The translations under genes were made by a program, and so were the position numbers. The notes beneath the pieces are model-generated. The model searched no databases, had not been told where the DNA came from, and saw only the letters and a list, made by a program, of their open reading frames with translations. A DNA stretch of 64,000 nt, taken from positions 496,001 to 560,000 of the forward strand of contig NZ_JACHIF010000002.1 in the NCBI RefSeq assembly GCF_014203045.1. Reading direction: 5' to 3'. Positions within the stretch are counted from its first letter, which is position 1. Each line of letters opens with the position of its first letter. Source of the DNA: Prosthecobacter dejongeii. Its GTDB lineage: Bacteria > Verrucomicrobiota > Verrucomicrobiia > Verrucomicrobiales > Verrucomicrobiaceae. Below, piece after piece: positions 16,837 to 20,883 of the stretch.

Positions 16837-18675
16837 ATGAATGCTTCCTATAACTCTGTGCTTGAGCAGCTTGAACCCCGCTTGGCTCCTGCGGGAGTGA
16901 TTGCGGTCTCGGTGAATGCTGGGGGGACACTGGTGCTGGGAACGGTACCAGGGCTGGATGGGGATGAGCGGGTGACCATCGAGGGACTGTCAGATGGGAC
17001 TTACCGGCTGACACCGGATGCGGGCGTGCAGTTGCGCATCGGCGGGCTGAATTTTAATACGCCTCAGATCATCTCGGGCGTGACAGCGGGCCTGACGGCA
17101 AACCTGGGTGCTGGGGATGATGCGGTGACGCTGAATAATGCGTTTTTCGCGAAGGCGGTGAGCATCAATCTGGGGAACGGGACCAATGGTTTTACCATGA
17201 CGGACAGCAACATTGGCGGGGCCTTCAGTTACACCGGGGGAGAGGGCGGAGATGGGGTGATCTTTAGTGGGAATTTTGCCACGGTGGGTGGTATAGCAAC
17301 GATCAAGCTGGGTGGTGGGGCAGATGATGTCACGGGCACGGCAGATCGGCTGAATTTTGGGCTGGGACTGACGATCGATGGAGGTGGCGGGGATGATGAA
17401 GTGCGGCTGGCGAACTCGGACGGGGATGACCTCGCCATTTTAGGCAACTTCACGTTTGTCGGCGGGGCAGGGGATGATGTTTTGAGCTTTGGGTTTGCCA
17501 ATGCTGGGGTGTTGATCAGCGGTGCGCTGAAGCTGACGGATGTTACGGGAAATGAGTCGGTGCTGTTTGCGGGCAGCCGTGTGGATGTGGGGGCGCTGTC
17601 CTTAGCGGCAGGCAGTGGGAACAATACCCTGCTCAGCACGGTGACGGATTTCCTGGTGGCGAAGACGCTGCAATGGACGAGCGGCAGCGGGACGGATGAT
17701 GTGGACTTTAACGGAAGCCATCTGCGGGTGGGCGGTGCGGTGAGCATTTCTGTGGGCACGGGAGGTGGGGATGCCGAGCTGACCCCGCTGAACTCGCTCT
17801 ATGTGGGAGGAACCGTGATGGTCTCTGGATCTGGAGCAAACCGTGATTTGGATGTGAACGCCAGCGAGGTGTTCATTGGCGGCAAAGTGACGCTGGCGGC
17901 GGGCGTGGGGGATGGCAGCGCGCGTATTTTTGCCCTCAACGGGATGTTCTTGGGCGGCGGGGCGAACCTGACCTGCGGTGCAGGGGACACAAACCTAACC
18001 ATCAGCGGCAATTTTCGTCTGGTGAGCAACGGCAGCCTGACACTGACAAATGGAGGGGGGCTGGGAGGGACGTCGGTTTTTATTGGCGGGACAAGCACTG
18101 CCTCCACGATCAATGGGGCGGTCACTCTCAAAGGGGGAGCGTTTGTGAGCCTGGAAATGATGGGGACGATCTCGGGTGCGGTGAATTTGAGCACGGCTTC
18201 TTTGTCGGCTGCCTCCAATATCACGATTGACTGTTTTACGGTCGGGACGCTGCACATTGGTGGGGCGGTGAAGCTGAGCACACCGACGCTTGCGGGGCAG
18301 ACGGGAAGCATTCGCATCAATAGCGCCATTTTTGACAATACGCTGACCGTGATGGGGGGAGCCGGGGTGGAGACGCTGACCATCAACAATTCGGTCGTAA
18401 ACAAAGCTTTCACGGCAAGCCTGGGGGCTGGGAACGATTTGTTCAGCCTGGAGCAGGTGAATTCGGCGGGTGCATCGAACTACCGAGGGGCGGTGATGCT
18501 GAAGGGCGGGGCAGGGACGGATACGTTTTTGCTGGGGGGAGCAGGGGCGAACTTTGCGATCAACTTTGGCCAGAAGGTGACGGTGGATGGGGGGACTGAG
18601 AATGATGCGCTGACGACGGGGGCGAGTGTGACCTTTGCACCGGGACTGCCGCTGATGACGGTGAGTGTGCCGTGA
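16837..18675 (+). CDS. Glycine-rich surface protein with N-terminal LEPR motif
   Basis: A 612-residue repetitive protein. It lacks a classical signal peptide but opens MNASYNSVLEQLEPRLAPAG. This resembles the short LEPR-type N-terminal signature found on very large secreted proteins of Planctomycetes and relatives, thought to act in export or anchoring. The rest is Gly/Ala/Ser/Thr-rich with recurring GAGDDAVTL, GGGGDDEVRL and GGAGDDVLSF blocks about 30-50 residues apart, in the style of a parallel beta-helix or RTX-like repeats that could bind calcium. No enzymatic motif is seen. The DNA is strongly purine-skewed, which leaves long open frames on the other strand. Confidence 0.7.
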   Translation: MNASYNSVLEQLEPRLAPAGVIAVSVNAGGTLVLGTVPGLDGDERVTIEGLSDGTYRLTPDAGVQLRIGGLNFNTPQIISGVTAGLTANLGAGDDAVTLNNAFFAKAVSINLGNGTNGFTMTDSNIGGAFSYTGGEGGDGVIFSGNFATVGGIATIKLGGGADDVTGTADRLNFGLGLTIDGGGGDDEVRLANSDGDDLAILGNFTFVGGAGDDVLSFGFANAGVLISGALKLTDVTGNESVLFAGSRVDVGALSLAAGSGNNTLLSTVTDFLVAKTLQWTSGSGTDDVDFNGSHLRVGGAVSISVGTGGGDAELTPLNSLYVGGTVMVSGSGANRDLDVNASEVFIGGKVTLAAGVGDGSARIFALNGMFLGGGANLTCGAGDTNLTISGNFRLVSNGSLTLTNGGGLGGTSVFIGGTSTASTINGAVTLKGGAFVSLEMMGTISGAVNLSTASLSAASNITIDCFTVGTLHIGGAVKLSTPTLAGQTGSIRINSAIFDNTLTVMGGAGVETLTINNSVVNKAFTASLGAGNDLFSLEQVNSAGASNYRGAVMLKGGAGTDTFLLGGAGANFAINFGQKVTVDGGTENDALTTGASVTFAPGLPLMTVSVP

Positions 18676-18724
18676 CCTGGGCGGGGAGTGGAATCCCTGG
18701 TTGCCCCAGGGCGATGAGGTGCTA

Positions 18725-19717
18725 ATGAAAGGGTGCCCTATGCAGTGTTCTCCCCGTTTCAGCAGCTTTTCGAAGTGCGTTTTTGTCACCCTTTCCCTCG
18801 GGGCGGTAATGGCCGTCCTGATGCCGGTTTCGGCCTCGGCTCAGGCCGCCGTGCTCGCGGCAGATAGTTTTAACCGCAAGGTGCATGTGGCCAGTCAGGC
18901 CAATGACAAACGCCCTGTAGGCGGCTTGGCCAAAATCGCTACGGCGATGGTGACTCTGGATTGGGCTGAAGCTTCAAAAGTGGGGGTGAACATCCTGGCA
19001 ACGGTGCCTGCGTACGCACCTCAGGTCGCAGGTAGCAATACTTTGGGCTTGCAGCCTGGAGATCGTTTGACCCTGCGAGATCTCCTTTATGCCACGATGA
19101 TGACGGCGGATGATATGGCTGCAATCACCCTGGGCGATTTTGTCGGCCGTGACCATCTTCAGCGTCTGCAACGTGCAGGCGACCCGCTGAATGAGTTTGT
19201 ACGTCAGATGAATCAGCTCGCGGTGCGTGAAGGCGCTCGAAACACCCGCTTTACGAACCCCCATGGGTTTGAGAACACCCGCACGATGCCTTACTCCACG
19301 GCTGCTGACATGACCCGTCTCGGGCTGTATGCCATCTCCCGCCCAGCACTACGTTTCTACACCAATCAACGCACGCGAGACATCACCGTTTACCGTGCTA
19401 GTGGTCAGGTCAGCCTGCCATTAAACAATACCAATGAATTGCTTGGTGTGAGTAACATTGATGGCATCAAATACACGGCCACCCAGCGTTCGGGAAGTTG
19501 CATCGTCGTAACGGCTGAACGCCCTGCTTCAGTGACTAAGCAACCCGATGGATCAAGCCTGATTTACCGCCATCGTATGGTCGTGACAGTGGTAGGATCC
19601 GCGAATGCTGCGGCAGAAGCTCACGCATTACTCCAGCAAAGCTGGGCCGCGTATGATCGTTGGTTAGCCGCAGGTCGCCCCATCACGGACAAGCGCCAGT
19701 TGCTGAATCACTTTTAG
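18725..19717 (+). CDS. Peptidase S11 (D-alanyl-D-alanine carboxypeptidase) homologue with degenerate catalytic motifs
   Basis: A 330-residue exported protein (signal peptide ending near SASAQ) with the overall order of a PBP5-type DD-carboxypeptidase: LGLQPGDRLTLRDLLYATMM, FVRQMNQLAVREGARNTRF, TNPHGFENTRTMPYSTAADM and NIDGIKYTAT align in sequence. All three active-site motifs are altered. SxxK reads GLAK (Gly67 in place of the Ser nucleophile), SxN reads TAD (127-129), and KTG reads KYT (249-251). Peptidase activity is therefore unlikely, and a peptidoglycan-binding or regulatory role is an inference. The ATG at 18725 has a GAGG five bases upstream; a GTG at 18665 overlapping the previous gene is less likely. 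Confidence 0.75.
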   Translation: MKGCPMQCSPRFSSFSKCVFVTLSLGAVMAVLMPVSASAQAAVLAADSFNRKVHVASQANDKRPVGGLAKIATAMVTLDWAEASKVGVNILATVPAYAPQVAGSNTLGLQPGDRLTLRDLLYATMMTADDMAAITLGDFVGRDHLQRLQRAGDPLNEFVRQMNQLAVREGARNTRFTNPHGFENTRTMPYSTAADMTRLGLYAISRPALRFYTNQRTRDITVYRASGQVSLPLNNTNELLGVSNIDGIKYTATQRSGSCIVVTAERPASVTKQPDGSSLIYRHRMVVTVVGSANAAAEAHALLQQSWAAYDRWLAAGRPITDKRQLLNHF

Positions 19718-19791
19718 TCAGTCGTCCATTTGGCCTGCCCAGTGGAGGCAGGGTAAACGTAATTTCGATCCTAACCCCAACCCTACGAATC

Positions 19792-20883
19792 ATGCGAATC
19801 GGTATCTTGAATAGCGGCGGCGATTGCCCCGGTCTCAATGCGGTCATCCACGGCGTCGTCGGCGCAGCACACACCCTTGGCTGGGAAGTCGTGGGTTTTC
19901 GTGATGGTTTTGAAGGTCTTTTGCCTCCTGGTGACTACATGATGCTGGACCCCAGCCGCACGGTGGGCATCATGAAACTCGGTGGAACTATTTTGGGCAC
20001 TACCAATAAAGGTCACTTCGTCGCCAAAGTGGGCGAAGGAAACGTCGCTGAAGTGCCTCGTGAAATCGTCGAAAAGGCCAAAGCTACTCTGCGTCATCTT
20101 GAGATCGGCGCGCTCATTGTCGTGGGCGGAGACGGCTCACTCACCACAGCCCAGCAGCTCTTTGAAATGGATGTGCCCGTCATCGGTGTGCCGAAGACCA
20201 TTGACAATGACATCCAAGCCACGGCGATGACCTTTGGGTTTGATTCCGCATGTCACTCCGTGGTGGATGCGCTGGACCGCCTGCATACCACGGCTGAAAG
20301 CCACAAGCGCGTGATCGTGCTGGAAGTGATGGGACGTCATGCGGGCTGGATCGCCCTCTACGGCGGGATGTCTGGCGGGGCCGATGTGATCCTGCTGCCA
20401 GAGATTCCTTTCCAAATGGAGCACGTGGCCGATGCCATCCGCCAGCGAGATGCACGCGGTCTGCACAGCACCCTCGTGGTGGTGGCCGAAGGTGCTCGCA
20501 TGGAAACAGGTGAGCTTTTAAAGAAAGAAAACGTCGGGGGCAAAGGCGAAGATCGTCTGGGTGGTATTGGCGATTACGTCGCGAAAAAGATTGAAGCCAT
20601 GACCGGGAAAGAAACCCGTGCCTGCACACTCGGGCATCTCCAGCGCGGAGGTGCACCCACGGCGCTCGACCGCATCTTGGGTGTGCGTTTTGGTGCCAAA
20701 GCGGTTCACTTGATCGAAGAAGGTAAATTTGGCCGCATGGTGAGCTATCAGCATTACCAAGTGGGAGATGTGAGCATCCAAGAGGCGGTGAATCAGCTCC
20801 GCCTCGTGCAGCCAGACAGTGAAATCATCCGTGCGGGACGCAGCATCGGCATTTGCTTTGGTGATTGCCGTGTAGGCCGCTGA
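19792..20883 (+). CDS. pfkA: 6-phosphofructokinase (mixed-signature type)
   Basis: A 363-residue enzyme phosphorylating fructose 6-phosphate. The N-terminal RIGILNSGGDCPGLNAVIHG is the phosphate-donor loop. PKTIDNDI carries the catalytic Asp, and EVMGRHAGWIAL binds the sugar phosphate. The donor-specificity positions are mixed: VVGGDGSL has Gly115 (the ATP-type residue at E. coli position 104), but PKTID has Lys135 where ATP enzymes usually have Gly (position 124), as in PPi enzymes. This Gly/Lys combination is known from the so-called group III enzymes. The ATG at 19792 directly precedes the first strand. A terminator follows at 20909. Confidence 0.9.
   Translation: MRIGILNSGGDCPGLNAVIHGVVGAAHTLGWEVVGFRDGFEGLLPPGDYMMLDPSRTVGIMKLGGTILGTTNKGHFVAKVGEGNVAEVPREIVEKAKATLRHLEIGALIVVGGDGSLTTAQQLFEMDVPVIGVPKTIDNDIQATAMTFGFDSACHSVVDALDRLHTTAESHKRVIVLEVMGRHAGWIALYGGMSGGADVILLPEIPFQMEHVADAIRQRDARGLHSTLVVVAEGARMETGELLKKENVGGKGEDRLGGIGDYVAKKIEAMTGKETRACTLGHLQRGGAPTALDRILGVRFGAKAVHLIEEGKFGRMVSYQHYQVGDVSIQEAVNQLRLVQPDSEIIRAGRSIGICFGDCRVGR

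Follow-up and report, generated by a model that had tools for sequence, protein, structure and literature searches.

The window analysed here, a stretch of 64,000 nucleotides from the genome of Prosthecobacter dejongeii, carries a coding sequence for 330 amino acids plus stop (18725–19717, + strand) that its open reading frame, a match to Pfam family PF00768 and its orthologues identify as the gene for an exported, putatively inactive relative of the S11 DD-carboxypeptidases. The frame is uninterrupted from the ATG at 18725 to the stop codon that ends at 19717, and a GAGG that probably serves as ribosome-binding site (18716–18719, +) lies five bases before the ATG. Residues 1–39 (18725–18841, +) form a signal peptide, judged by eye from the sequence, with the cleavage site inferred in the same manner between VSASA and QAAV. 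Coordinates, open frame and signal peptide agree with a preliminary description of this DNA, which had placed an S11 gene with intact frame and signal peptide at this position. A promoter scan around the gene found none, and a terminator scan gave two terminator-like matches as compared to a mean of 1.3 in shuffled sequence.

At a distance of 74 bases and on the same strand, the S11 gene is followed by a gene for 6-phosphofructokinase (pfkA, 19792–20883, +; PF00365, 336.6 bits), a conserved downstream neighbor that was used as a synteny marker. The same-strand pair, which spans positions 18725–20883 of the window, is conserved across the Verrucomicrobiae, and among the open reading frames flanking the S11 gene only pfkA and the frames overlapping it recur in related loci. 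A distance rule puts the S11 gene immediately before pfkA in 81 of 104 nonredundant loci; the remaining 23 comprise 15 loci with room downstream but no pfkA, five without room and three with pfkA outside the rule. In a further 88 loci, some of them repeats, S11 precedes pfkA in 68 cases, while 12 offer no room and eight have room without pfkA. NCBIfam models do not settle the phosphate donor of the phosphofructokinase in the window, PFK_mixed scoring below and the ATP-dependent subfamily model above cut-off. Upstream of the S11 gene, positions 16837–18675 (+) encode a repeat-rich protein of 612 amino acids with an N-terminal LEQLEPRLAPAG stretch, which we take to be a LEPR-type start as in large surface proteins of the superphylum. 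This protein has no Pfam or NCBIfam match at E ≤0.001, and among the related loci compared it is not a recurrent neighbor of the S11 gene.

The encoded protein matches PF00768 (Peptidase_S11) with 95.7 bits against a cut-off of 27.6, and at E ≤0.001 PF00768 and PF13354 are its only Pfam matches. The best match by sequence among solved enzymes is DacB from Bacillus subtilis (3mfd; phmmer, E 1.4e-15). AlphaFold2, run on an alignment of 72 sequences (the window protein and 71 of 80 orthologue loci), predicted a structure with a pLDDT of 95.3 across the 291 mature residues, which VIA-align superimposed on the Streptomyces K15 DD-transpeptidase (1es2) with Z 33.3 over 246 residues at 2.0 Å, on B. 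subtilis DacB with Z 32.8 and on Escherichia coli PBP6 with Z 31.9. An orthologue with intact motifs (L095) was predicted alike (pLDDT 92.4 from an alignment of 36; Z 34.1 to 1es2). Both the profile match and, on the predicted structure, the fold place the protein in the S11 homologous family, and the earlier statement that the S11 framework is well preserved is borne out by the PF00768 match and the confidently predicted fold.

Positions of the catalytic motifs were set by alignment to orthologues and to solved S11 enzymes. The nucleophilic serine of SxxK is replaced by Gly67 (codon GGC, 18923–18925, +), as the preliminary description had it, while the lysine of this motif is kept as Lys70 (18932–18934, +). 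SxN, which reads SDN in intact orthologues, is replaced by A128-D129-D130 (19106–19114, +), i.e., Ser has become Ala and Asn has become Asp; the TAD originally assigned here lies one residue too early. The KTG motif is represented by K249-Y250-T251 (19469–19477, +), the KYT recognized before, with Lys249 retained. Of the features that characterize serine DD-carboxypeptidases and penicillin-binding proteins, the protein thus has the SxxK lysine and lacks nucleophilic serine, SxN and KTG/KSG. Each of the three motifs as a whole is indeed lost, as had been claimed, but the active-site lysines K70 and K249 are both still in place. A motif scan found no intact motif set elsewhere in the protein: SxxK strings occur solely at residue 14, within the signal peptide, and at residue 269, while the pattern [KHR][ST]G is matched once, by RSG at 255. 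An intact motif exposed by realignment would have spoken against loss; none came to light in the scan, the phmmer alignments to solved enzymes or the orthologue alignments, and a misalignment concealing such a motif was rejected on the same grounds. On the predicted structure, the window protein is a DD-peptidase frame with the chemistry removed, and we infer that it is catalytically dead.

Orthologues were searched for in 68 Verrucomicrobiaceae genomes and are present in 65 of them; one of the three genomes without a match is 93% complete. The sequence pattern first used began at the SxxK lysine, where K or Q was allowed, such that the serine column was left unselected; it could miss rows with other lysine losses, and the best 80 of 142 matches were used. 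In total, 170 non-identical orthologue rows entered the final alignment, where they were grouped by genus or family code, named records being assigned by their place in the tree. In the following, g1 stands for Prosthecobacter in a wide sense, as identical copies of g1 proteins occur in records under the names Prosthecobacter sp. and Brevifollis gellanilyticus, and f2 stands for Akkermansiaceae, two f2 proteins having identical copies in records with this name; the rows from Verrucomicrobiaceae span 11 genus codes, and the Chthoniobacterales clade comprises records named Chthoniobacterales, Chthoniobacteraceae, Spartobacteria or just Verrucomicrobia.

Within the Verrucomicrobiaceae, glycine occupies the nucleophile position in 64 of 64 readable rows, and the full triad is present in none of 65 rows, two of which are fragments. 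This applies to g1 (Gly in 44/44 readable among 45 rows, one being a fragment without this part; triad in 0/45) as well as to the remaining genera (Gly in 20/20, triad in 0/20). As the 64 sequences are non-identical, an assembly or sequencing error at this codon was rejected. Lys70 is found in 61 of the 64 readable rows, the exceptions reading GGLSQ (twice) and GGVTM (once). The 27 rows of the Chthoniobacterales clade, which share 39–44% identity with the window protein, all have the serine as well as intact SxxK/SDN/KTG. Other lineages, some of them named Akkermansiaceae, likewise have serine throughout (27/27) and a full SxxK/SxN/K[TS]G triad in 25 of 27 rows. The f2 sample retains serine in 42 and the triad in 29 of its 48 rows, and family f6 has glycine in all three of its rows and no triad (0/3). 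Taken together, the triad is intact in 54 of 78 rows outside the Verrucomicrobiaceae and the Chthoniobacterales clade. A survey of orthologues had been proposed before as a check: the loss of serine is indeed family-wide, whereas loss in all three motifs is limited to a part of the family that includes the window's clade, and orthologues with SxxK/SxN/KTG, which had been named as evidence to the contrary, do exist outside the family but not inside it (0/65). Two proteins from records titled Akkermansia muciniphila (L058 and L078) are located inside the Prosthecobacter clade and probably stem from mislabelled metagenome-assembled genomes.

Linkage of S11 to pfkA spans intact as well as dead forms and speaks for vertical descent of the locus. 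The genome encodes two further S11 genes, both with intact motifs. The same two types were inspected in the genus, in up to 30 loci each; this covered 30 of the 32 genomes that have a match to the first type and all 30 that have a match to the second, and the triad was kept in 30/30 and 30/30 loci. Because the paralogues are intact in all 60 loci, the motif loss is, to judge by this comparison, specific to the pfkA-linked locus. A mix-up of paralogues is disfavoured by synteny with pfkA and by the long starred branch that separates the S11 paralogues L001 and L002, which served as outgroup, from the other proteins.

Several lines of evidence bear on whether the dead form is maintained. Between the window gene and its nearest relative, 17 nonsynonymous and 164 synonymous differences were counted, dS being saturated. 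Among the 25 pairs listed with lowest dS, 20 show dN/dS values of 0.03–0.16 and five values of 0.23–0.45; four of the latter involve L007 and one is the pair L010–L030. In these pairs, dN is larger than so low a dS would suggest, and shared codon bias is likely. Codon models (GY+F3X4, one omega per tree, quick search), the values of which are approximate because dS is saturated in most comparisons, gave an omega of 0.048 for 40 dead family rows (37 from g1 and three from other genera; 0.060 under MG+F3X4), 0.022 and 0.025 for six and eight rows, respectively, of the window's clade, 0.030 for 19 rows from other genera of the family, three of them shared with the 40-row set, and 0.046 for four rows with the SxxQ variant described below. 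The corresponding values are 0.084 for the 27 intact rows of the Chthoniobacterales clade and 0.056 for a set of 15 rows of which 14 are intact. Judged by these estimates, omega of the dead form (0.02–0.05) is no higher than in groups of which all or nearly all rows are intact. Gene-specific decay is disfavoured by the substitution counts as well as by the codon-model omegas.

One may nevertheless ask whether the gene is a redundant carboxypeptidase on its way out, given that further motif residues have been lost within Prosthecobacter, that two intact S11 paralogues are present and that three of 68 family genomes, among them the one that is 93% complete, have no match. We consider such a decaying relic highly improbable, since the frame is open, the signal peptide is kept, the gene occurs in 65 of 68 family genomes, omega lies at or below that of intact orthologues and Gly67 is itself invariant in 62 rows. 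Catalytic residues are lost while frame and predicted fold are under purifying selection, as would be expected of a pseudoenzyme; the original view of a selected pseudoenzyme rather than a product of decay is thus supported by the absence of the nucleophile from every readable family row together with purifying selection.

The distribution of constraint along the protein is informative. In 62 family rows, D129, K249, C259, N235, N237, S191 and D195 are invariant along with Gly67, and K70 is kept in 59 of them. In the same rows, residues 250 and 251, both invariant in the intact clade, are among the more variable positions (82nd and 84th percentile). Within this alignment, drift thus affects the catalytic contacts, and the framework is preserved together with Gly67. 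In addition, six residues outside the three motifs (N50, H54, F139, R168, E169, and H283) are fixed in the 40 dead rows and absent or rare in 81 intact rows. These residues, together with the lost SxN and KTG contacts in the window's clade, would suit an exported structural or envelope protein unrelated to peptidoglycan peptides, in which the S11 fold is reused as a platform, e.g., for outer-membrane or surface attachment. We regard this as unlikely, because conservation of K70, K249, D129, C259 and N235/N237 suggests that the pocket still matters.

With regard to the order of events, other genera of the Verrucomicrobiaceae have kept SDN in 17 of 20 rows and KTG in 12 of 19 readable rows. The proportions in g1 are 22/45 for SDN and 14/45 for KTG, the replacements of the latter including KAA, KAS, KTA, KYT, and others. 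The eight rows of the window's clade combine ADD, SDD or GDD with KYT, KYA or KSA and show changes in all three motifs without exception (8/8). Since SDN and KTG are kept in many family rows with glycine fixed, the pattern suggests that serine was lost first, by the stem of the Verrucomicrobiaceae, and that SxN and KTG eroded later, furthest in the window's clade. The early branches L083–L085 already have KTA or KVA, so that KTG would have been lost repeatedly or partly regained. In one orthologue set, serine is encoded by AGT or AGC in 59 of the 60 rows that have it (including two paralogues and four SxxQ rows), and its replacement by glycine therefore needs a single A-to-G transition. That many proteins lack little but the serine (KTG in 12/19 and SDN in 17/20 rows of the other genera), with K70 kept in 61/64 and K249 in 62/62 rows, could also be read as re-purposed catalysis, in which water or another residue acts on a different substrate with the help of both lysines. 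This appears less probable still than a structural role: position 67 is fixed as glycine and not as another nucleophile, three family rows lack K70, and in many Prosthecobacter species the remaining machinery has eroded, unlike what catalytic selection would produce.

Catalytic residues have also been lost in other lineages. In g2 of the Akkermansiaceae, whose genomes measure 2.7–3.2 Mb, four of five distinct rows read SxxQ/SDN/KAG and the fifth (G035) has MxxN, all four rows of g24 show SxxQ or ExxQ, g27 has PxxS at the SxxK position, and g22 features several degenerate forms next to one intact row (L142). The natural Lys-to-Gln variants with KAG instead of KTG (L041, L042, L043 and L046 as well as L153, L178 and L179) belong to g2 and g24, two genera of the Akkermansiaceae. 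Orthology is less sure for the very degenerate S11 proteins L183–L186 and L188 from g22 (f2), four of which have room downstream yet no pfkA, while L185 is without room. On each of two quick trees, the Ser-Lys state requires a minimum of five changes (undirected). The AU test rejected a single clade of 28 dead rows (p 0.0048) but neither a clade of Prosthecobacter and the SxxQ genus g2 (p 0.376) nor one of Prosthecobacter and f6 (p 0.535), the latter constrained tree being slightly better; the free tree unites the two SxxQ genera weakly (support 80). Loss of catalytic residues on more than one occasion at the pfkA-linked locus is supported by these trees, and any number beyond this depends on genus and family codes as well as long branches. 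It is conceivable, although we would put the chances somewhat below even, that the pfkA-linked S11 protein of Verrucomicrobiae also serves the cell wall in a non-catalytic capacity that is older and of greater importance than its enzyme activity. In this case, the sampled Verrucomicrobiaceae, the SxxQ lineage of small Akkermansiaceae genomes, the second SxxQ genus and f6 could have dropped catalysis, probably independently, and yet have kept the protein, and the intact Chthoniobacterales forms would be bifunctional.

In our preferred reading, which we hold to be rather probable, the window protein is a selected periplasmic pseudoenzyme of S11 fold that does not cleave but binds, its ligands being stem peptides or partner proteins. 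Its ancestor would have been an intact serine DD-carboxypeptidase encoded upstream of pfkA in much of the Verrucomicrobiae. At or before the stem of the Verrucomicrobiaceae, the nucleophile probably changed from Ser to Gly and then stayed Gly. Purifying selection would have held the fold, K70 (with three exceptions), K249, Asp129, Asn235, Asn237, Ser191, Asp195 and Cys259, and drift appears to have affected parts of SxN as well as Thr and Gly of KTG, which contact the substrate, furthest in the window's clade. In S11 chemistry, no acyl-enzyme forms without the serine, and neither trimming of D-Ala nor acylation by penicillin would therefore be expected. In proteins that lack nothing but the serine, the old pocket could plausibly still bind stem peptides, and such proteins may then resemble the Ser-to-Gly substrate traps made from serine beta-lactamases in the laboratory. 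In the window's clade, ADD and KYT should leave the protein a poor binder of its former substrate, and the eroded SxN and KTG speak against stem peptides being bound at the original site. With the SxN and KTG contacts gone, partner proteins of cell-wall synthesis would be the likelier ligands in this clade, and their binding could modulate or position the intact S11 enzymes that other loci of the genome encode. The role as peptidoglycan sensor or scaffold suggested in the preliminary description is treated here as a hypothesis.

Dead cell-wall enzymes that act as regulators are known in other folds, e.g., EnvC, NlpD and CwlM. EnvC, NlpD and DipM are degenerate LytM proteins, dead cell-wall hydrolases kept as regulators of live ones; they offer a model of a possible way of working only, as their fold is unrelated to that of the S11 protein in the window, in which no LytM (Peptidase_M23) domain was detected with Pfam at E ≤0.001. 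A close comparison is with the S11 low-molecular-mass penicillin-binding proteins and DD-carboxypeptidases (E. coli PBP5 and PBP6, B. subtilis DacB, Streptomyces K15, and Rv2911 and Rv3330 from Mycobacterium tuberculosis), with which the window protein shares fold, domain family and both active-site lysines and from which it differs by the missing nucleophile, ADD instead of SxN and KYT instead of KTG. According to an excerpt of PMC4281109, Rv2911 and Rv3330 keep STIK/SVIK, SGN and KTG, and an inhibitor was bound to the serine. Intact verrucomicrobial orthologues such as L095 from the Chthoniobacterales clade occupy the same locus upstream of pfkA and have the same predicted fold. If the binding role holds, they provide matched controls and the other losses replicates. 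Annotation as S11 would over-count penicillin-binding enzymes in Verrucomicrobia. Excerpts of PMC12283558 report canonical tri- and tetrapeptides among the muropeptides of Verrucomicrobium spinosum and describe an established TraDIS library and targeted mutagenesis for this verrucomicrobial model. Trimming of stem peptides thus takes place in V. spinosum, and intact enzymes presumably carry it out. From the family survey, V. spinosum would be expected to have the Gly form, and these tools could make the binding role testable.

Among titles and opening parts of abstracts of open-licence articles on pseudoenzyme penicillin-binding proteins, dead S11 proteins and cell-wall work in Prosthecobacter and Akkermansia, no report of a family-wide dead S11 carboxypeptidase was found. 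With respect to binding by dead enzymes, the portion of PMC13104611 consulted describes an inactive peptidoglycan amidase mutant whose binding to peptidoglycan was stronger than that of the active form, and discusses this mutant as a substrate trap. In class A beta-lactamases, the S70G exchange traps unhydrolysed substrate, as stated in extracts of PMC5829062 and PMC11843585. The same Ser-to-Gly change at the equivalent nucleophile is found here, with the difference that S70G enzymes are laboratory mutants while the change in Verrucomicrobiaceae is natural and fixed; should the binding role prove true, a bacterial family would have kept a natural Ser-to-Gly substrate trap.
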